Counted from the stretch's first letter, positions 15,001-36,894 are shown. The stretch is 36,894 nt of DNA from Pirellula sp. (GCA_025459245.1 JALOQZ010000009.1:1-36894); one strand, 5' to 3'. Notes: generated by a model not told the origin, from the sequence alone. Made by a program: numbers and translations.

Positions 15001-15033
15001 CCTCGCCGCTACTGTGCGGCGAGGTATTTTTTT
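15001..15033 (+). terminator. Rho-independent terminator downstream of the ThuA gene
   Basis: CCTCGCCG / CTACTGTG / CGGCGAGG followed by TATTTTTTT. It overlaps the 3' end of the convergent CotH ORF (stop at 15009). Confidence 0.8.
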
Positions 15034-17444
15034 AGGTACTCATACCGAGCCTTGGCAAAGTCGAGAATGGACATGTCGCGACCAGAAGCCCCGGTTTCGG
15101 ATTCTAGCGCAACCGCTTTCTGAAATGCCTCGTACGATTCGAGTTTGCGCGTATCCTGCTTTACCAATGGATCAATCATTGGAACGTAATGTTCGATTCG
15201 AGATCGCAAGAAATCCCCGCCGAGTATCTCCTCGTTGATCTTTGCGAGAATTTCCAAGTAGCGAGCTCGGTACTTCGGTACAGCGAGAAGTTTGCTACGA
15301 AGCGGCTTGGAGGGATCGTTGAGGCCGGTGAGCGGGTCGAGTTCTGCCGGAGATCGACCGCCTGCCGCTCCACCGCCAACACCACGCGTTGGGCCTTGCT
15401 CGCGACCACCACCCCCACGATTTGGCCGGCCAGGCCCACCCATGCCAGGCCCACCCATGCCAGGGCCCATCGGCGGTTTGAGCGTTTCGTTCGCGTCATG
15501 AATGGCTACGTGAAAGACACCTTGGCTATCGCGGTAAAGCGAATAATCGCTCGCGCGTGTCCAATAGCCATCGCTGTTGACCAATCCGATATCGAGCGCG
15601 AGAAAATGCAGAGCCCCTTCAACGTTCAGAATGGGTTCAATCTTTGCGGGTAGTTCCTCGATAGGAGTCGTGTTGAGAACTTTGCATAGTTCAACGAGCG
15701 CCTGCCAATCTTCCTTGCGATCCTTGCTCTTGATCTGATAGGTTCGTTTGTAGGCCTCGACATCATCGCCAACAAATTCCAAACCACCTCGCCCTCCTGG
15801 GCTACCTGGCACCTTCCATCGAGCCCCTTTGGAGTCCGGGAATCTCGCTTCGACGAACTCCTTGTTGAACTGCTCTGCGTTGACATAGAGTCCCCAGCTT
15901 TCACCGTTGATCACGACGTGAACAAAGTTTGCAACCGGAGCGAGTGTGTATTTCTGAGCCGCCTCCAAATAAAGCACCGTGCGCAAGAAGCTCGGGTCTT
16001 CGTGCGCATTCAACAGGTTGAGTGTTTTGCGACCATAAAGACGCTGATCTTCATCGACGAAGTCCATCGATAGGTTTAGCGACCGCTTGCTCCCCGCAGG
16101 TACCATTCCAAAGGAGGACATGCCGCGAAAGTGGACTCCGACTTGAGGGTACTCTTTGCCATCCACGAAGAGATTGGCCGGAACCTCGACATCGGTGTTA
16201 TTGAAGTCGGCGAGCTCTGCCTCCCAGTCGTTCCCTTCGAAGCTCAAAAACAATGTTCGAATCGCATTGTCGGTGTACAAGGACTCGTCCGGATAGCTCT
16301 TCACGTCTTCGACTGCAACACGCGGGCCGGGAGAAGTAGGTTCTGCACCGCGCCGCCCCGGAGGTCCGAATCCAGGACCGCCCCCAGGGCCCCCCGGCCC
16401 ACCGGGGCCAAAACCGCCTGGGCCACCCGGTCCAGCCGGGCCACCAGGCCCAAACCCGCCCGGTCCACCTCGACCTCCCGGGCCTCCTCGACCGCCGGGC
16501 CCGCCGGGGCCACGATTCGGTTGAGATTTCAAAAACTGTCGCGCTTCGTCCCTCTCCGATCGATCCAGCCTTTCGTTTCCATCTTTATCAAATTGAGCGA
16601 CCAGTTTTCTGGTCTCCGACATAGGACCGCCACCCATTCGGAAGGCAGGAGCTGGGAACGTGAACTTTGATCCAGTCTTCTTTTCCCACTCCCCCTTTTG
16701 TTGGTCAGTCAGTAGGGCAAGAATCTTGGCTTCACTTTCGTTTGCACCTGCAGCCTCAGGACCGTTTGGCCCAAAGCCGGGAGGACCAAATTCGCCTGGC
16801 GCCCCTGGAGGCGGGCCAAATCCTCCAGGCCCACGCGGACCGCCCCCGAACAGACCGCCGAACCATCCGGGCCCGTCGCCATTTCTGGAGTCCTGGAACG
16901 AGATTCCCAGCGGCTCGAGAATTTCACGTAGCGATTCACGTTGAACGCCGCTCAATTGAAGTTCATCGTGCAGTTGCTTTTCCGCCCAAGCTCGAATCCC
17001 CTTGCGTTGTAGCTGCAATTGATTCAGCCGCTTCATCTGATTTTCATTCAGCAGCTTGCGAATCCTCTCTTCGGATTCGCGTTGACTCTTCTCGTTCTGA
17101 TCCCGCATACGCCTTAAGGTGTCATCGCGTTGATTCGGATCCATTTCAGGCAGCGCTGCGAAATCGATCTCCGACATCGACTTCTCGATCGCCTTACGAT
17201 GTTCGTCCTGGATCGAACCCAATGACTCTCGCTGCGTCTCCTCCAGCTTTAGTTCTTTGAGAACTTCGTCCAAGGACAAAAGACTCAATAGAGATTCGTC
17301 GGGGCCTCGTCCCGGCTGCCCGGGGATGTTTCGTCCCATCCCCGGCGGCTGAGCGAGCGAAGGAATGGGAAAATAGGCATGAAATGCGGCTGCTGCTCCG
17401 GTGCAAGCAATAGTTCCGAGTAACCATCGAAGATGAGACTTCAT
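15009..17444 (-). CDS. CotH kinase-family protein with N-terminal LTXXQ-like helices, EF-hand and collagen-like Gly/Pro-rich linkers
   Basis: 811 aa. Signal-like N-terminus; helical region (LLNENQMKRLNQLQLQRKG..., LLTDQQKGEWEKKTG); EF-hand DKDGNERLDRSE; long GPGGPGG tract; CotH-like core (DNAIRTLFLSFEGNDWEAELADFNNTDVEVPANLFVDGKEYPQVGVHFRGMSSFG...GSKRSLNLSMDFVDEDQRLYGRKTLNLLNAHEDPSFLRTVLYLEAAQKY...VHVVINGESWGLYVNAEQFNKEFVEARF). Confidence 0.9.
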   Translation of the reverse strand: MKSHLRWLLGTIACTGAAAAFHAYFPIPSLAQPPGMGRNIPGQPGRGPDESLLSLLSLDEVLKELKLEETQRESLGSIQDEHRKAIEKSMSEIDFAALPEMDPNQRDDTLRRMRDQNEKSQRESEERIRKLLNENQMKRLNQLQLQRKGIRAWAEKQLHDELQLSGVQRESLREILEPLGISFQDSRNGDGPGWFGGLFGGGPRGPGGFGPPPGAPGEFGPPGFGPNGPEAAGANESEAKILALLTDQQKGEWEKKTGSKFTFPAPAFRMGGGPMSETRKLVAQFDKDGNERLDRSERDEARQFLKSQPNRGPGGPGGRGGPGGRGGPGGFGPGGPAGPGGPGGFGPGGPGGPGGGPGFGPPGRRGAEPTSPGPRVAVEDVKSYPDESLYTDNAIRTLFLSFEGNDWEAELADFNNTDVEVPANLFVDGKEYPQVGVHFRGMSSFGMVPAGSKRSLNLSMDFVDEDQRLYGRKTLNLLNAHEDPSFLRTVLYLEAAQKYTLAPVANFVHVVINGESWGLYVNAEQFNKEFVEARFPDSKGARWKVPGSPGGRGGLEFVGDDVEAYKRTYQIKSKDRKEDWQALVELCKVLNTTPIEELPAKIEPILNVEGALHFLALDIGLVNSDGYWTRASDYSLYRDSQGVFHVAIHDANETLKPPMGPGMGGPGMGGPGRPNRGGGGREQGPTRGVGGGAAGGRSPAELDPLTGLNDPSKPLRSKLLAVPKYRARYLEILAKINEEILGGDFLRSRIEHYVPMIDPLVKQDTRKLESYEAFQKAVALESETGASGRDMSILDFAKARYEYLKKYLAAQ

Positions 17445-17499
17445 CCATTATTCCTTTGACTGTAGAGGAGAATTATTCTGAGAGGGGCGAGGGATCCGG

Positions 17500-18219
17500 T
17501 CACAAACTCGCGTTAGACTCCGTTGCCTTTTCCAGCGCGACCGATTGAATACCTTCCATACGATTGAGTCGATTGACCCATTCAAGCGGATCGCATTGAT
17601 CAGCCCATAACGCATCGTAAACGACCTCGATTGCTGCACCTTGTTTGGTCGTTTGAATCTCGATCAACTTTGGCTCGCGAAAAGCACCGTCGATCGCTTG
17701 CTGAATAGGACCGCGAATTTCCACACCCAGTCCCAATCGCAATCGGATTCGATACCAGTCTTGTTTGGCGGTTGTTGGATGGGAGGAAGAAGGGGATGTG
17801 AATTGTTGCATTGCAAGCGCCGCAAGACTCACAATGGGTACACCCACCAGAGGAACGAGCCATTGAGCACATCCAACCGCCATACCGATAACCACACCGA
17901 AGATCACAAACGCGGTGTCGCGTGTGTCTTCAACTACTGTACGAAATCGGACGATGGCGAGCGCTCCTGCCAGCGAGAAGGCTCGGGCGATCGAGTTCCC
18001 AACCACGGTGGTCACCATGCAAATCAATACCGTCAGTAATACCAACGTCACATACATCGAGCGATCGTATCGGTTTTGTGATCGGAACTTGGTGATACGG
18101 TAGACCTCGGCAATGATCCATCCGAGTGCCGTCGAAGCTGCGAAGCGGATCGCTAAACTCAACGCATCGAGAGGCCCCGTCTCCGTGGTAGAGAAGATCG
18201 ATGAAAGTGTTTCGTTCAA
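17500..18219 (-). CDS. DUF4956 family membrane protein
   Basis: LAIRFAASTALGWIIAEVYRITKFRSQNRYDRSMYVTLVLLTVLICMVTTVVGNSIARAFSLAGALAIVRFRTVVEDTRDTAFVIFGVVIGMAVG. TTG start at 18219 overlaps the stop of the upstream VTC gene; the listed ORF extends to 18321. Confidence 0.85.
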   Translation of the reverse strand: MNETLSSIFSTTETGPLDALSLAIRFAASTALGWIIAEVYRITKFRSQNRYDRSMYVTLVLLTVLICMVTTVVGNSIARAFSLAGALAIVRFRTVVEDTRDTAFVIFGVVIGMAVGCAQWLVPLVGVPIVSLAALAMQQFTSPSSSHPTTAKQDWYRIRLRLGLGVEIRGPIQQAIDGAFREPKLIEIQTTKQGAAIEVVYDALWADQCDPLEWVNRLNRMEGIQSVALEKATESNASL

Positions 18220-19034
18220 AGTGTTGCTCCTACTGATTTCTCCATCGACGTTATGAATTCTTTCATCGCCGCTCGATATTTTGAGAACTTGATAGGAGCA
18301 ATTTGAAAGTCTTCCACCCATCGCTTGAGATGGACGGGCAAAGAATCCATGAACTTGAACTCGACGACGCAGTGGTTTGGCTCTAGCGGTTGCAGCGATC
18401 GTGAAGCTGATGAAAGCTGGGCTTCGTGCGTACCAGACAGATAGTCCTGGAACTCAGACCAACCCTGCTGTGCAAATCGATGCACCGAGAGTTCGTTATC
18501 GATCGTTACGCGGAAAGGGACATCGGAATGCTCACTGATAAACGCTTCGCGCCGATACTCGACAGCGCAGCTCGGCAACAATCCGAAGGTTTGCGTTTCA
18601 CTCCATATCGCAGAGTCCAAGGAACTTAACTGCAGTAATTGGTCCAATGGGATAGGGTCTCGAAGCTTGGACACAACTCCTTGTTGTCGCAGTTTGCGTT
18701 CGAGGAAAAGCTCGCGCCCATCGTCGTATCGTCGAAATCGGAATTTAGCTCCCCCTGTGGCCGGCGTTCGATGGTAGATGTCGTACGATCGCGTATCCAG
18801 ATAAAGACTGCAAACCTTGTACTGCCCTGATACTTGATCGGCGAATGGATCGAACTGCAATTCACCCCGCGCTCTGGCTTTCAGCTGTTTCGCTAAATCG
18901 ATCGGCAGCAGGAACTTTAGCTCAATTGCTCGCTGGCTGGTGTTGGAGCCATGTACTAGTCCGGGCGATAAATAGGTAGGAATTGCAGATTGCATGCAGC
19001 ATTCTCTGCAATCCGTTGGCGGGTCGGATTCCAT
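18216..19034 (-). CDS. VTC-domain (polyphosphate polymerase-like) protein
   Basis: Triphosphate-tunnel hallmarks: AIELKFLLP, KVCSLYLDT, AKFRFRRYDDGRELFLERKLRQQGVVSKLRDP, VEYRREAF, FRVTIDNELS, CVVEFKFMDSLP, PIKFSKYRAAM. Confidence 0.9.
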   Translation of the reverse strand: MESDPPTDCRECCMQSAIPTYLSPGLVHGSNTSQRAIELKFLLPIDLAKQLKARARGELQFDPFADQVSGQYKVCSLYLDTRSYDIYHRTPATGGAKFRFRRYDDGRELFLERKLRQQGVVSKLRDPIPLDQLLQLSSLDSAIWSETQTFGLLPSCAVEYRREAFISEHSDVPFRVTIDNELSVHRFAQQGWSEFQDYLSGTHEAQLSSASRSLQPLEPNHCVVEFKFMDSLPVHLKRWVEDFQIAPIKFSKYRAAMKEFITSMEKSVGATL

Positions 19035-29259: not shown

Positions 29260-30582
29260 ATGAAGCCAACATTAAGCCCCGGCCGGTCTCCCGATCAAGC
29301 GAAGCAAGATGACTTCGAGAATATCAAACGACGTATTCATCAACGGTTGGTCGACAAGCTCGATCTATCCCGCGTCGGTGATTTGAAGGGCGAATCATTC
29401 AGGCGCGAGATTCGCATCGTCGTCGAGCATCTGTGCGACAGCGAGAACACGCACCTCAACCGATCCGAGCGAGATCGTTTGATCGAGGAAGTTCTCGACG
29501 AGACTCTCGGGCTCGGGCCGCTTGAATTCCTGCTCAAAGATCCGGCCATCAGCGATATCCTGATCAACGGACCGAAAAACATTTTCGTCGAGCGTAAGGG
29601 GCAACTCGAGAAGACCTCCGTCGAGTTCCGTGATAACGCTCACTTGATGCAAATCATCGACCGAATCGTTTCCAAGGTCGGTCGTCGCGTCGATGAAACC
29701 TGCCCGATGGTGGACGCGCGTTTGGAAGATGGTTCACGGGTGAACGCGATCATCCCACCGCTAGCGCTTGATGGCGCCGCGGTATCCATCCGGCGATTTG
29801 GCTCGAACCCGCTGAAGCTGGAGGGGTTGCTGAATTACAAAGCGTTCACGCCCGAGATGGTGATGCTCCTCGAAGGATGTATCAAAGCTCGATTGAACAT
29901 CATCATCAGCGGGGGTACTGGGTCCGGTAAAACGACTCTTCTCAACACATTGAGCAGCTTCATCCCGAATGATCAACGGATCGTAACTATTGAAGACGCT
30001 GCTGAACTGCAGCTTCAACAAGAGCACGTTGTTCGATTGGAGACACGCCCCGCCAATATTGAAGGAACCGGTGCAATCACCGCGACGGACCTAGTTCGAA
30101 ACGCGTTGCGTATGCGCCCTGAACGAATCATCATCGGTGAGTGTCGAGGAGGTGAAACCCTTGACATGCTGCAAGCTATGAACACGGGTCACGATGGTTC
30201 GATGACAACCATCCACTCTAACTCGCCTCGCGATGCGATCGCACGCCTCGAAACGCTGGTCATGATGGCTGGCTTCGAGCTTCCGGTAAAAGCGATTCGA
30301 CAGCAAATCGCGGGGGCGGTTGATGTTATTATTCAAGCCAACCGTCTGCAGGGCGGGCCCCGCCGCGTGCTCAACATCACCGAAGTTCAAGGGATGGAGC
30401 AAGACACGGTGGTTCTGCAAGACATCTATCGATTCGTTCAAGACGGAATCGATGAGAATGGAAGAGCCTCTGGTTATTTTGAAGCCACTGGGGTGCGTCC
30501 ATCTTTTATGCCAAGACTGGAGGCCGCGGGAATTCGTCTTCCTGCGAGCGCATTCCGTCAACGGATCATGATGCGAGCTTAA
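29260..30582 (+). CDS. tadA: Tad secretion ATPase TadA/CpaF
   Basis: Walker [89 protein letters not shown]. Confidence 0.96.
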
Positions 30583-30586
30583 TACG

Positions 30587-31552
30587 ATGCTGATTCTTAT
30601 TATTGCTGTATCGGTCGGTATATGCGTAGCCGCCATGGTCGGCGCAGTCGCCTTTGCGATTCGCGGCGATGAAGACTCTATCGCGGAATCCCGGCTCAGT
30701 TCGCTTACAAAAAGAAATAGCCCCGAGCTATTGAACGACTCCGATCTGCTGCAATTGCGCGGTGGACCAGCGAATGCTGCTCGAAACGCACTTGACGATT
30801 GGATGGCTCGCACCTTCGATATGCAATCGTTGATCGAGCAAGCGGACATCAAAATGACGCTGTCGCAGTTCACATTTCTCTGCATCGGGCTCGCGATCGC
30901 CGGGACGATCGGATGCGCGATGGCTCCTATCCCGATCTTCATCGCCCCCGCTGCGGGCGCGATTCTCTTTTTCACTCCTTTCCTTTGGGTCAACTTCAAG
31001 AGAAAAAGACGGATTGCCAAGTTCAACGCGCAGCTCCCTGAGGCGCTCGAGATGCTGAGCCGCTCGCTTCGCGCAGGGCATTCCATCGGTGCAGGTTTTG
31101 GTTTGATCGCAGCAGAGATGCAGAATCCGCTCGCCAAGGAGTTCGGGCGTTGCTTTGAAGAACAAAATCTGGGTGTCTCGTTGGAAGGCTCGTTGGAGAG
31201 CATGGCAAAGCGGATTCCCAACCTTGATTTGCGATTCTTTGTTACTGCGGTTGTTCTTCAACGGACCACCGGTGGGGACCTTGCAGAAATTTTGGACAAG
31301 ATCGGACGACTTGTTCGTGCCCGTTACCGATTGGCTGGGCAGATTCAAGCGCTCACAGGTGAAGGACGCTTGTCCGGTGTCGTGCTGCTGGCCCTGCCCC
31401 CCGGCTTGTTTGTGGTCATGCTGTTTCTTAACCGTGAATACGTGATGAAGCTTTTTTCGGACCCCATCGGCCAATGGCTTTTGGGTGGAGCCATTGCGAT
31501 GCAGCTCGCAGGTGCCTTCGTCATTCGGAAGATTATTGATATCAAGGTTTAG
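30587..31552 (+). CDS. tadB: Type II secretion F-domain protein TadB
   Basis: FNAQLPEALEMLSRSLRAGHSIGAGFGLIAAEMQNPLAKEFGRCFEEQNLGVSLEGSLESMAKRIPNLDLRFFVTAVVLQRTTGGDLAEILDKIGRLVRAR: T2SSF core. Confidence 0.93.
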   Translation: MLILIIAVSVGICVAAMVGAVAFAIRGDEDSIAESRLSSLTKRNSPELLNDSDLLQLRGGPANAARNALDDWMARTFDMQSLIEQADIKMTLSQFTFLCIGLAIAGTIGCAMAPIPIFIAPAAGAILFFTPFLWVNFKRKRRIAKFNAQLPEALEMLSRSLRAGHSIGAGFGLIAAEMQNPLAKEFGRCFEEQNLGVSLEGSLESMAKRIPNLDLRFFVTAVVLQRTTGGDLAEILDKIGRLVRARYRLAGQIQALTGEGRLSGVVLLALPPGLFVVMLFLNREYVMKLFSDPIGQWLLGGAIAMQLAGAFVIRKIIDIKV

Positions 31553-31561
31553 CGGTACGGA

Positions 31562-32551
31562 GTGAAGCTAGTGAACATCTACATGCTTGGCGCCTTGGAT
31601 CAGCGATGGATTATTATGGCGGCCGTCTTTCTGGGAGTCGGTGCGCTGGTTTGGTTCTTGCTCGATCTCTTCTCCAAGGACCAGCAGGCTTCCGCCGAGA
31701 TGCGGCTGGATCTGCTCAATGATCGCAAACGGACCAGCTCGTCCGCAGACGACAAGGTCAAGGGGGTCAACAAAGTTACCAAAGCATTGGAAATGGCTTC
31801 GCCGGCCCTCTCCAAGCATCTAGAGCCAAAGACACAAGAGGAGAAGGGAAAGCTCGTTCAACGATTGTCGGAAGCTGGGTTCCGATCCGAAGAAGCTCCG
31901 GCAATGTTCCTTTCAATCAAAGTCATCGTTGCTATCACCGGCTTTGTACTTGCCGGGGGAATTTCTGCACTGGCTTCGGGGTTCAATCAGTCGATTCTGC
32001 TGCGAGCCATCCTGGGTGGTGGCATCGCTTTCTTCATGCCGGAAATGATTTTGGACTTCTTGCGATCAAGCCGTAAGAAGCAGATCACCCTCGGGTTGCC
32101 AGACTGTCTCGACTTGATGGTCGTGAGCGTGGAGGCAGGCTTGGGATTGGATCAAGCGATGCGCAAGGTCTCAGAAGAAATGCGTTCTTCGTACCGTGTC
32201 TTAGCGGAGGAGATTCAATTGTGCACGCTCCACCTGCAAATGGGCAAAGTACGAGCGAGCGTGTTGCAAGATTTAGGGCAACGCACCGGAGTGGAAGATC
32301 TGCGAACACTTGCCACCTTGCTCATTCAAGCCGACAAGTTCGGCTCTGGCGTCGCTCAAGCATTGCGTGTTCAAAGCGATTCGATGCGAATCAAACGCCA
32401 GCAAATAGCCGAAGAGAAAGCGGCTAAGACAGCGGTCAAACTGATTTTCCCGCTCGTTGTCTTCATTTTCCCTGGCGTCTTCGTTGTGCTCGTCGGCCCC
32501 GCAGCCATCCAAATGGCCCGCGAGATGTTTCCTGCGATGCAAGGCAAATAA
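31562..32551 (+). CDS. tadC: Type II secretion F-domain protein TadC
   Basis: GLPDCLDLMVVSVEAGLGLDQAMRKVSEEMRSSYRVLAEEIQLCTLHLQMGKVRASVLQDLGQRTGVEDLRTLATLLIQADKFGSGVAQALRVQSDSMRIKRQQIAEEKAAKTAVKLIFPLVVFIFPGVFVVLVGPA. Confidence 0.93.
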   Translation: MKLVNIYMLGALDQRWIIMAAVFLGVGALVWFLLDLFSKDQQASAEMRLDLLNDRKRTSSSADDKVKGVNKVTKALEMASPALSKHLEPKTQEEKGKLVQRLSEAGFRSEEAPAMFLSIKVIVAITGFVLAGGISALASGFNQSILLRAILGGGIAFFMPEMILDFLRSSRKKQITLGLPDCLDLMVVSVEAGLGLDQAMRKVSEEMRSSYRVLAEEIQLCTLHLQMGKVRASVLQDLGQRTGVEDLRTLATLLIQADKFGSGVAQALRVQSDSMRIKRQQIAEEKAAKTAVKLIFPLVVFIFPGVFVVLVGPAAIQMAREMFPAMQGK

Positions 32552-32652: not shown

Positions 32653-34077
32653 TTATCGGTTGATACCTTGGAGCAAGGCCTGGAGACCGAAGGTGAAGAA
32701 AGTTCCGATACTGAAGTTCAGCACTTCTTCGCATGGCTTGTATCGCAGGATTAACGTGTCGCCCGGCATGACGAGGGGACGCTCGCGAGGATCGACTGCA
32801 GCTTTCGCCAAGTCTACTTCGATGGTGATTTGCCCGTTGCAAGGAGTCTTTCGGAGGATGTAGAGGATCCCTGGAGGGACGCCACCAATCGAGTTGATAC
32901 CAAATCCAGCTCCTTGTTGTTGCCCGCGTTGGCCAAGGCCGGTTCCAGCCATTGCCATCGCTCCGAGAACGTCCAAGTCGTAGTCGCGTGGGATGAGCCA
33001 TTCGCCACCTGCTAGCATACCGCCGGTGTAGAAGACTTCAGCATCTCGCGATTCGATATAGACCACGTCACCTTCTTCGAGCAGGATATCTTCGGGGCGG
33101 AAGGTTGGGACGACACCCGGCGGCAATCGCATGGGGATCTTGATAATGTTCGGATCATCCGGGAGTGGAGGAGGGCAGCTGCATGGATTGGGGTTCGAGA
33201 AGTAGGTCTGGTAAAACTGCTGTACGAACAGATCACGTTCCTTCTGATTGATCTTGCTGGCCTTGAGGATCTTCACTTCGTTCTTGGCATTGATACCGGG
33301 TAGACCGCCGGAGGACATCAGTGCATGAAGGACGTCGTTTTGATAGGCAGGCAATTTGATCATCTTGCCCGAGGAGCTTTGGTCCGAACCTCGAACATAG
33401 TTGCCCCGACCACCGGTTGCATTAGCAGCTTGCCAGAACGGGTTTTGCACAGCAACGTCTTGCCGAACAACGACAACGTTGTACGTCCGTTCTTGCATGA
33501 GCGTTACGCTCGGCTGCAATCGTGCGTTGTCTTGGACGATCTTCGCATCGAGGTACGCCTTCTTGACCAAGTTCGTGACTTGCTCAATCGTCATCCCTTT
33601 CACCTTGATCGGTTCGATCGATTGCAGGGAGATCGTCCCGTTTTCTTGAACAACGATTGGGAAGCCGATCGAAGGATCGAGCGTGCTTTGTTCCGTTGGC
33701 AAGTTAACAGGTGGCGGCTCGGGTGGTTTGTCAGCCGACGAGTAAGGGAGGATCCCCTCGATATAGACACCGAGGATGTCCCCCGCATCGAGCAAGTACT
33801 GACGCGGTGGTTCCTGCGTAAGTCTCGATGGATCGAGCGGCACTAAATTGTTCTTCGTTTGAGCCAGGAATTGAGGAGGCAGCCGTCGAACCGGGATCCC
33901 TGTAATGGGTTGGGTCAACGATGTACAGCCGGTACTCAGGCCGCCGAGGACGAGCAAGCCGGTTACGGCCGCTGATCGGCAAAGTTGGCGTAGCGACGAA
34001 GCTGTCTTCCGCCACAGTTTTATTCGGTTCGTCATGGGATTCCGTTCCACAGACATGGTTCGCACCTCAAGGCCCAA
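32653..34077 (-). CDS. Polysaccharide biosynthesis/export (Wza-like) outer-membrane lipoprotein
   Basis: VLGGLSTGCTSL lipobox; YLLDAGDILGVYIEG... poly-export segment; IVVQENGTISLQSIEPIKVKGMTIEQVTNLVKKAYLDAKIV; SLBB-like DVLGAMAMAGTGLGQRG; LVMPGDTLILRYKP. Confidence 0.9.
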   Translation of the reverse strand: MGLEVRTMSVERNPMTNRIKLWRKTASSLRQLCRSAAVTGLLVLGGLSTGCTSLTQPITGIPVRRLPPQFLAQTKNNLVPLDPSRLTQEPPRQYLLDAGDILGVYIEGILPYSSADKPPEPPPVNLPTEQSTLDPSIGFPIVVQENGTISLQSIEPIKVKGMTIEQVTNLVKKAYLDAKIVQDNARLQPSVTLMQERTYNVVVVRQDVAVQNPFWQAANATGGRGNYVRGSDQSSSGKMIKLPAYQNDVLHALMSSGGLPGINAKNEVKILKASKINQKERDLFVQQFYQTYFSNPNPCSCPPPLPDDPNIIKIPMRLPPGVVPTFRPEDILLEEGDVVYIESRDAEVFYTGGMLAGGEWLIPRDYDLDVLGAMAMAGTGLGQRGQQQGAGFGINSIGGVPPGILYILRKTPCNGQITIEVDLAKAAVDPRERPLVMPGDTLILRYKPCEEVLNFSIGTFFTFGLQALLQGINR

Positions 34078-34163
34078 GCAGGGCGATCAACATTCGGTTC
34101 GTATTGCGGGATGGTATCGAGCGAGGTATGCAACCTCGATGCGATGATTTATGAGAGGGCTTG

Positions 34164-34886
34164 CTAACGATTGGGCACAGCCACCGGAGTTGGAATCAGG
34201 CTTGCGCCCTGCTCCATCACTTCACCCTCGTGGATGATTTCCCCTTCGATCACAGCGTCCGCTGGAATCGCGTTCGTGCGGCCGAAGTTCGTGATGCCAT
34301 CCGGAACGGCTTGCTGTGGAATGGGATACATTCCTGCGTAGGACGGGTCTAGCAAACCGTGCTGAGCATATTGCTGCTGTACCGATAGGGATGTTTGGAT
34401 TTGGGAGTAATTCCCAATTCCGTCTTCCTCTGCAGCTCGTGCTCCATGCGGAAAACCGGAGAACCAAGCGGACACCTTCGCTTGGCCTTCGCAAGACTGA
34501 TATCTCCATCCCCAATACTCGCGGGGTGGGAAGGTTGGCACACAACCAGTGCCTCCGTCCGCGATATCCATGTAGCCAGCTCGAAAACCTCGAGCAAAGT
34601 CTTTGATGTATTTTTGGTTCGCGAAGCAGTCTTTGCGAGCGTGCCAAGCACGGCGAGCTGAGACGGCGTTGCGATCTCTTAGCATTTTCTCATTCCACCC
34701 GGCGTTGTAGGTCCACACATTGTGGAGCCCGGTGAATGCGGAACAGCCGCCGAAAGGTAATACGACGGCGCCCAGTAGCATTGCGACGACCAAGCGACGT
34801 CGTGAGCGTTTTTTGGAGACATTGCTAATAGCTGCAGCAAGCTCCGTGAAATTTACCGACATTCGGATGCCCCCTATTCGAATCAA
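34164..34886 (-). CDS. Hypothetical lipoprotein, probably planctomycete-specific
   Basis: VVAMLLGAVVLPFGGCSAF lipobox; conserved-looking W/C/G-rich core (FARGFRAGYMDIADGGTGCVPTFPPREYWGWRYQSCEGQAKVSAWFSGFPHGARAAEEDG). Confidence 0.7.
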   Translation of the reverse strand: MIRIGGIRMSVNFTELAAAISNVSKKRSRRRLVVAMLLGAVVLPFGGCSAFTGLHNVWTYNAGWNEKMLRDRNAVSARRAWHARKDCFANQKYIKDFARGFRAGYMDIADGGTGCVPTFPPREYWGWRYQSCEGQAKVSAWFSGFPHGARAAEEDGIGNYSQIQTSLSVQQQYAQHGLLDPSYAGMYPIPQQAVPDGITNFGRTNAIPADAVIEGEIIHEGEVMEQGASLIPTPVAVPNR

Positions 34887-35158
34887 TCAATGAGGAGGGA
34901 GCGTGTTGCGGACACGCAGACCCCGGAAACCCCATTGCATGGAAGTATCGGTAAACCATGTGGCAGAGTTTAATCTATGTAACGACCATGCCAACTTTGG
35001 CGGATTTGTCATAAAAACCGGAACGCCCTCCTGTATCAATCGTTCCGCTTGCTAAAGAATCAATCCGTGTAGAGTTCCCTGTTTTTACAAATGCACCGTT
35101 TTTTGCCTTTCTAGGAGATTAGGCTAAGGATGCTTCGATGCCTCGTGAAAGACGGAGA

Positions 35159-36894
35159 ATGATGGATAGCGACCCCCTGCCAGACGACGTTTCTAAGCTT
35201 CAACGCGAAATCAGCCGTGATTCAAGCTCGCGACGGAACTCCCGTTCTAGCGGGCGTAGCAGCCGCCGGCCAAGTTCGGAGAAGGAACGCGGTCGCAACA
35301 GTTCTCGAGCAGGCAAATCTCGGGAAAAGGGTGGCGATTGGTTCGCCGGTGCAATCGGTTGGCCGATCCGGATCGGTTGTCTGGCTCTGGTCCTGGCTTC
35401 GCCCTGGTTCTACGGCTCCGCACCTTGGGTCAGCCAGTATTACTTGAACTGGGGATTGCTCGTAGGAGCAGCTGCGACGCTTGTTTATGTAGTTGTCGCT
35501 GCAATTCGACGCGCCGAGATCCCAAACCTTCCTGTCGCATCCTGGTTTCTACTCTCCCTATTCGCGATCGCCGCTTACCAAACCAGCAGCCAATACGATT
35601 TGCTCGACAGTCCGAATGCTCCACCCAGCGTTCAAGTTCAACGCTGGGCCTTGGGTGTCACCTCCGCCCCGTCACCGATCGATGGATACACTATTGAGCC
35701 CGATTCCTTCGTTGCGAATCAAATTCCATGCGATCTTCAGAAGGTCTCTGCATCCCCATTGACCAGAAGCATCGAACCGCTTCATTCACGGGGCGCGATG
35801 ATGGCAATTCTCCTGTCTGCATTGCTCTGCTGGTGCGGCGCTGCTCACTTCAGCACTCGGCAAGGCCAGTTGTTGCTCTTCTTAACCATCACTATCACCG
35901 GAGTGGCCGTCGCCGCTTTCGGGATTCAGGGTGCGCTTTCCTACAAAGAGACAAATATATTAGGGCTTCGGACTGGTTCGTCCTTCGCTTCCTTTCAATC
36001 GAAGAACTCGGCAGGTGGTTATCTCAACGTGGCTCTCGCTGGTGCGATAGGCCTCTTTGCTTGGTCGCTGATCCATCTCAAACGAAAGAAGATGGATGTT
36101 CGGTATCGAGTCTCCGAGGAAAATACATTTATGAAGCTCAAGGGATCGGTGGAGGATTTCTTCGCGGATCTCAACACGGCCCAGATCGCCTCGCTTCTGT
36201 GTCTGGTTTTGCTCGTCGTCGCACTCCTGATGAGCTTGTGCCGCGGTGCGGTTGTATCAGCCGTCGTCGCGATCATCGGTGCAGCCATGATGGCGAACTA
36301 TAAAAGTCGAGGACGAGGAGGCGCGATTGTTTCTGCATTATTGATCTTCGTCTCGATCGGCAGCATGGTTGCTTTGCAAGTCGACGAGGATGTCTACGGG
36401 CGATTGCAGAGCTTAGCTGAATTTGACTTGGAAGAGGATTCCATCAACGGCCGGACTTACATTTGGGGCGTGGCATGGAAAGCGATGCTCTTCTATGGAT
36501 GGCTAGGAAGCGGATTGGGAACCTTTCACTTTGCCTACTTGCCCTTTCAAGATCCCTCTTCGCCAGGCTGGTTCTATCATCCCGAGAGCCTCTACTTTCA
36601 ATGTGCTGTCGATTTAGGTTGGGTCGGGATCTCGATCATGATCGTCGGAATCCTTACCTCCTTCATGTCGATTCAACGCCGTATTCCAGGGGATGTTTGG
36701 AAATACGGGTTCCCCATGAAGCTTGCGGGTGCTTATTTGCTGATCAGTCAATGCGCCCACTCGGCCGTCGATTTCGCGATGATTGTCCCGGCCTTATTCA
36801 TCCCGACGTCTCTCCTCTTCGGAGCAGCGAGCGCGTCTATCCGCCGCGCCTGCAACATGTCGAGCAAGTATGCCGATCCGAGAGAGAAGTTAGA
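35159..36894 (+). CDS. O-antigen ligase (Wzy_C-like) family membrane protein, truncated by window end
   Basis: Open frame from ATG 35159 to the window end: MMDSDPLPDDVSKLQREISRDSSSRRNSRSS... then multiple TM segments and the ligase-like core SINGRTYIWGVAWKAMLFYGWLGSGLGTFHFAYLPFQDPSSPGWFYHPESLYFQCAVDLGWVG. Absent from the ORF list because it has no stop in the window. Confidence 0.82.
   Translation, partial: MMDSDPLPDDVSKLQREISRDSSSRRNSRSSGRSSRRPSSEKERGRNSSRAGKSREKGGDWFAGAIGWPIRIGCLALVLASPWFYGSAPWVSQYYLNWGLLVGAAATLVYVVVAAIRRAEIPNLPVASWFLLSLFAIAAYQTSSQYDLLDSPNAPPSVQVQRWALGVTSAPSPIDGYTIEPDSFVANQIPCDLQKVSASPLTRSIEPLHSRGAMMAILLSALLCWCGAAHFSTRQGQLLLFLTITITGVAVAAFGIQGALSYKETNILGLRTGSSFASFQSKNSAGGYLNVALAGAIGLFAWSLIHLKRKKMDVRYRVSEENTFMKLKGSVEDFFADLNTAQIASLLCLVLLVVALLMSLCRGAVVSAVVAIIGAAMMANYKSRGRGGAIVSALLIFVSIGSMVALQVDEDVYGRLQSLAEFDLEEDSINGRTYIWGVAWKAMLFYGWLGSGLGTFHFAYLPFQDPSSPGWFYHPESLYFQCAVDLGWVGISIMIVGILTSFMSIQRRIPGDVWKYGFPMKLAGAYLLISQCAHSAVDFAMIVPALFIPTSLLFGAASASIRRACNMSSKYADPREKL

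Follow-up and report, generated by a model that had tools for sequence, protein, structure and literature searches.

The VTC-DUF4956-CotH operon

The planctomycete DNA analysed here (36,894 nucleotides (nt) of Pirellula sp., GCA_025459245.1 JALOQZ010000009.1:1-36894; below, the window) contains three adjacent genes, all on the minus strand, that encode a VTC-domain protein, a DUF4956 protein and a CotH-family protein (Table 1), and the Pfam calls for all three exceed the curated cut-offs. An earlier sequence-only reading had described three closely packed same-strand genes, and its coordinates hold: the VTC stop codon (TGA, 18218-18216) is overlapped by the TTG start of the DUF4956 gene (18219-18217), and the CotH gene begins at 17444, 55 nt past the DUF4956 stop, preceded by AAAGGAA. 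A longer in-frame DUF4956 start (ATG 18321) exists, lacking ribosome-binding-site-like support of the kind found for the TTG. Each gene occurs once in the source genome, all of them at 15009-19034, and because that genome is 82% complete, further copies are possible. No NCBIfam model matched any of the three proteins.

The trio is already known, and the window is a further member of it, because a CotH-PPP-DUF4956(-DUF4832) accessory cassette has been described beside pel operons, adjoining pel in streptococci, clostridia and bifidobacteria (Whitfield et al. 2020, PMC7112168), because NELoc-2 of C. perfringens holds VTC and CotH alongside glycosyltransferase and polysaccharide deacetylase genes (PMC11677781), and because the names VTC, DUF4956 and CotH are routine in RefSeq annotation. 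The earlier description of the trio as functionally unexplained was right, but the trio itself had already been reported in 2020. What is added here is the relation of DUF4956 to MgtC, its role as a hub, and the survey numbers. Compared with the pel-side cassette, the window has the same three families, contiguous and on the same strand, and differs in its planctomycete host, in having neither pel genes nor DUF4832, and in a CotH protein whose sequence includes a Gly/Pro-rich linker and an EF-hand-like loop.

Table 1. Positions of the three genes and their features in the window
Feature	Position	Strand	Basis
VTC-domain protein gene, 272 amino acids	18216..19034	-	Pfam, profile, AF2/Foldseek
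DUF4956 protein gene, 239 amino acids counted from TTG	17500..18219	-	Pfam, hhalign, AF2, Foldseek
AGGAG, ribosome-binding-like site, 7 nt 5' of DUF4956 TTG	18227..18231	-	sequence
CotH-family protein gene, 811 amino acids, N-terminal signal-peptide-like segment	15009..17444	-	Pfam, phmmer; signal by eye
CotH kinase-fold domain, whose Asp625 and Asp650 line up with both catalytic aspartates in the solved CotH	15033..16133	-	
EF-hand-like loop DKDGNERLDRSE, CotH residues 286-297	16554..16589	-	
Gly/Pro-rich low-complexity linker, CotH residues 311-369, not true collagen	16338..16514	-	

The VTC protein (PF09359, E 1e-24, 87.7 bits against a cut-off of 23) is soluble and consists of the VTC domain only. 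A single-sequence phmmer search of the PDB returned chance matches only, but a profile built from 31 family relatives matches the yeast Vtc4 crystal structures (E 4e-25), and with the AF2 model (pLDDT 84) Foldseek ranks 1-12 are all yeast VTC chains, with Vtc4 first (E 5e-13). Ten residues of Vtc4 (K200, R264, R266, K281, K294, R361, R373, E426, K428 and K458) correspond to invariant columns in the 31-sequence alignment; across 116 homologues, each has a conservation of 96-100%. Conservation of the basic active-site residues had been set beforehand as a test, and the outcome bears out the earlier claim that the tunnel-fold motifs of a polymerase are retained; two of these residues, R264 and R266, are essential for polyphosphate synthesis in yeast (PMC8749416). 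The protein is a triphosphate-tunnel (TTM) polyphosphate polymerase homologue and on this homology would probably make polyphosphate from ATP. It shares its catalytic tunnel domain and active-site residues with the yeast vacuolar VTC complex (Vtc4/Vtc3/Vtc1), but lacks both the SPX domain and the fused membrane helices, its membrane partner being a separate, MgtC-like protein. That it is no polymerase but a tunnel-type triphosphate hydrolase, or some other TTM enzyme with a different catalysis, is very improbable: triphosphatases do belong to the TTM class, AtTTM3, thiamine triphosphatase and class IV adenylate cyclases are also among the Foldseek matches, and no assay of a bacterial VTC protein was found in the literature searched, yet Vtc4 is clearly the best fold and profile match, and the residues mapped from Vtc4, those needed for polymerisation among them, are nearly invariant.

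The CotH protein matches PF08757 (E 2e-39, 136.5 bits) and, by phmmer, the CotH structure 5jd9 (E 9e-8). Its Asp625 and Asp650 align with D224/D247 of the 5jd9 chain, a pair with the same spacing as D228/D251, the catalytic aspartates of B. subtilis CotH (PMC7821199), with which D224/D247 are probably identical. The second acid of the WDYD motif is Asn in the window protein (HDANE). Together with an N-terminus that by eye resembles a signal peptide, these features support an exported kinase-fold protein, as the sequence-only reading had it, with phosphotransfer as a prediction only. The Bacillus spore-coat kinase has the same kinase-fold domain and both catalytic aspartates; the window protein differs in a signal segment instead of spore localisation, in HDANE for WDYD, and in an extra N-terminal half. 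Calcium binding, also claimed earlier, comes down to one EF-hand-like loop, DKDGNERLDRSE, which has a similar form in related CotH proteins. The description of the protein as collagen-like did not survive, as residues 311-369 run to no more than 11 G-X-Y triplets in a row, most of them GGP/GGR, before the phase slips; that run exceeds shuffles, 0.2% of which reach its length, and the stretch is of low complexity, without long uninterrupted G-X-Y repeats.

DUF4956 and the MgtC family

The DUF4956 protein (PF16316, E 2e-11) is modelled by AF2 (pLDDT 82) as about five membrane helices followed by a ferredoxin/ACT-like C-terminal tail, and Foldseek finds ACT-like domains at modest E-values, the C-terminal domain of MgtC (2LQJ) among them. 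Weak Pfam MgtC matches are seen in 20 of 30 DUF4956 family members (best 7e-5), and ACT_4 matches in two; because the MgtC matches are weak and do not reach the gathering score of that family, DUF4956 is a distant relative rather than an MgtC. When DUF4956 is aligned with MgtC homologues by hhalign, the two match with a probability of 97, an E-value of 7e-11 and a score of 76-78 over 188 columns, which span the membrane part as well as the C-terminal domain; reversed, shuffled and block-shuffled MgtC alignments score no higher than 24, and none of 39 unrelated neighbour families exceeds 21. At the level of sequence profiles, these comparisons establish VTC-linked DUF4956 as a remote MgtC homologue with an ACT-like tail, a relation that is new here and that does not appear in the available portions of the literature naming DUF4956. 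Searched against the PDB, the DUF4956 profile gave chance matches, and the chance matches of phmmer and profile searches were to factor H-binding protein and inositol monophosphatase.

DUF4956 and the MgtC/SapB family (PF02308) have in common a small multi-helix membrane domain, a conserved stretch of the G-x-x-G-A-x-x-I-x-R type and an ACT-like C-terminus; DUF4956 differs in falling under the family cut-off, in an R-F-R motif specific to it, and in its constant partners CotH and VTC. The R-F-R is invariant at the end of helix 3 and, from the charges of the loops, would face the cytoplasm. In a second DUF4956 clade, which lacks VTC, the motif is kept as R-Y/F-R, and the match to MgtC is only indirect, through the VTC-linked clade. 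On the Sinorhizobium meliloti plasmid pSymA (L214, 4263-6639), a DUF4956 gene directly follows a gene whose product resembles a caspase-like peptidase, in a locus that has neither VTC nor CotH, and this neighbour looks like another DUF4956 partner.

DUF4956 as the hub of the trio

A survey of 80 DUF4956 loci from many phyla, two of which (L069 and L031) are one place, found VTC in 63 (62 on the same strand, 54 within 200 nt), CotH in 47, and all three genes, in several orders, in 34, numbers that are biased by the choice of loci for similarity to VTC-linked DUF4956. VTC is missing from all 16 Poribacteria loci and present in 63 of the 64 loci elsewhere. A second survey covered 100 genomes of the source family, to which the Rubripirellula metagenome-assembled genome G092 (locus L069) also belongs, and its p-values are inflated by relatedness: CotH is found in 56/56 genomes with DUF4956 versus 7/44 without (Fisher 1e-20), DUF4956 in 32/34 with VTC versus 24/66 without, and CotH in 34/34 with VTC versus 29/66 without. 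Within each of four genera (g12, g13, g36 and g38), the two sampled species differ, one having both DUF4956 and CotH and the other neither. By Pfam, many DUF4956-CotH pairs in the source family stand without VTC; Pfam undercounts the triad, since divergent VTC proteins that adjoin DUF4956-CotH at L191, L193, L194 and L197 escape detection.

The distances among VTC and among DUF4956 proteins are strongly correlated (Mantel r 0.87 over 106 loci, against no more than 0.14 in 2000 permutations), and all six VTC records in a plasmid collection carry an adjacent DUF4956 match. A Planococcus plasmid has VTC-DUF4956-CotH in the same order as the window, Pseudobutyrivibrio has CotH-VTC-DUF4956 within a polysaccharide cluster of glycosyltransferase and pyruvyl-transferase genes, the whole trio is present in Nonomuraea, and the VTC-DUF4956 pair in the archaeon Methanolobus. 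The recurrence that the sequence-only reading had described thus reaches across phyla, far past close relatives. An exclusive service of DUF4956 to VTC is ruled out by the DUF4956-CotH loci without VTC. Because such pairs occur, and because VTC-linked DUF4956 is an MgtC relative, it is DUF4956, rather than VTC, that is the hub of the trio, which is new here. VTC and DUF4956 behave as subunits of one machine, and CotH as an effector or client that goes with DUF4956.

Looking for a fourth gene conserved alongside the trio turned up lineage-local genes only (ECF (extracytoplasmic function) sigma factor, HlyD-like, Cthe_2159 carbohydrate-binding, TPR, and planctomycete DUF1501/PSD1). The VTC-less DUF4956-CotH pairs of Poribacteria (L123-L148) lie in syntenic blocks, often adjoined by an ECF sigma factor gene, and in Chloroflexi, Methanolobus and a planctomycete (L067, L084, L086, L090-L092, L095, L097 and L108) a Cthe_2159 carbohydrate-binding protein is repeatedly encoded near VTC-DUF4956. 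An apparent VTC/DUF4956 fusion at L064 was a short truncated frame.

Around the trio in the window lie a BamB-like PQQ-repeat gene, 228 nt upstream on the same strand, and a ThuA gene downstream, convergent with CotH; between the latter two, at 15001-15024, is a terminator-like hairpin with 9 base pairs, 8 of them G-C, and then, reading the plus strand, a run of T. Within the source genus, one complete genome (L208) has the identical gene order and a comparable gene upstream, and 6 of 27 genomes carry VTC. No Rfam element was found in the window, and a promoter scan gave nothing exceeding chance. Farther off are a Tad/type II secretion-like row (29260-32551), consisting of a T2SSE ATPase and two T2SSF proteins, and, at 32653-36892, about 14-16 kb from the triad, a minus-strand Poly_export (Wza-like) gene and a plus-strand gene for an O-antigen ligase (Wzy_C), where a polysaccharide cluster may begin. 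The presence of these two genes in the window, the pel-side cassettes of streptococci, clostridia and bifidobacteria (PMC7112168), NELoc-2 of C. perfringens (PMC11677781) and the Pseudobutyrivibrio cluster all favour an exopolysaccharide or biofilm accessory module, in which VTC and DUF4956 would tune phosphate or energy supply and CotH would phosphorylate matrix or export proteins, as has been proposed for pel loci. It is nonetheless an unlikely account of the trio, given that the triad sits among housekeeping genes more than 13 kb from the export gene, and that polysaccharide genes are not recurrent neighbours at most planctomycete loci.

A possible route for polyphosphate to the envelope

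The sequence-only reading had proposed a membrane-coupled polyphosphate synthesis module linked to an exported, kinase-like and collagen-like protein; the polymerase signature, the operon, its recurrence and the exported CotH stand, the collagen-like part falls, and the proposal is refined by placing DUF4956, an MgtC relative, at the hub. The reading we tentatively prefer is that polyphosphate made at the inner face of the membrane is docked or conducted by DUF4956 toward an envelope that contains the exported CotH. Going by homology and conserved residues, the soluble VTC protein would work on the cytoplasmic side of the inner membrane, building polyphosphate from the gamma-phosphate of ATP; DUF4956, MgtC-like and with a cytosolic ACT-like domain, would be its obligate membrane partner, as their co-inheritance suggests, and may dock VTC and pass or gate the chain across the membrane, like the transmembrane part of the yeast complex. 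In the envelope, the exported CotH might then act on proteins of the surface or matrix, either by phosphorylating them or by binding exported polymer. In yeast, the VTC complex couples synthesis to translocation through a basic path into the membrane (PMC9911596), and DUF4956, with its invariant R-F-R at the end of helix 3, could, by analogy, stand in for its membrane part. A surface context for the trio is given by the CotH signal segment and by exopolysaccharide clusters elsewhere (Pseudobutyrivibrio and the pel loci). Since PPK1 is encoded elsewhere in the source genome, VTC is ruled out as its sole polyphosphate synthase; this suggests that the VTC product has a special destination and makes a separate, exported pool plausible.

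Several points weigh against this reading. The nearest characterised relative of DUF4956, MgtC, binds and regulates F1Fo and PhoR and has no known role as a polymer channel (PMC6658541). The orientation of the R-F-R depends on the model and on loop charges, the DUF4956-CotH pairs without VTC give DUF4956 a role independent of VTC, and CotH is more loosely co-inherited (distance correlations of r 0.40 and 0.50) and is local in under half of the VTC-containing family loci. ATP is not expected outside the membrane, where an exported kinase would need it, and the literature searched holds no biochemistry on any bacterial VTC protein.

The main competing account makes DUF4956 a regulator of the MgtC kind and no conduit, its ACT-like domain sensing a ligand and switching VTC, or the export or activity of CotH, while polyphosphate stays cytoplasmic. 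ACT-like domains are commonly ligand-binding regulatory domains, and one is what Foldseek finds in DUF4956. The homology to MgtC, which acts through protein contacts (PMC6658541), points the same way, as do the pairing with CotH in the absence of VTC and the caspase-like neighbour on pSymA. A regulator is possible but somewhat doubtful, as it leaves unexplained the near-constant company of an exported kinase-fold protein, and the 1:1 co-inheritance with VTC fits a switch no better than a complex. A bolder version of the conduit reading, and a rather improbable one, is that of a prokaryotic machine for polyphosphate export, made of the VTC tunnel enzyme and of DUF4956 as an MgtC-like pore, the product of which would serve CotH as phosphoryl donor or ligand where ATP is absent, leading to phosphorylation or polyphosphorylation of envelope proteins.

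Bacterial polyphosphate is credited to PPK1 and PPK2. If the conduit reading is true, extracytoplasmic polyphosphate would be explained by a second, widespread route of the VTC type that has a membrane partner of its own, and both DUF4956 and the exported CotH proteins would gain a role. As an operon the trio is ordinary, and it is useful as a testable three-gene module; the link to MgtC brings in a family known to affect phosphate and ATP homeostasis, and the kinship suggests a mechanism of polyphosphate export that is open to experiment.

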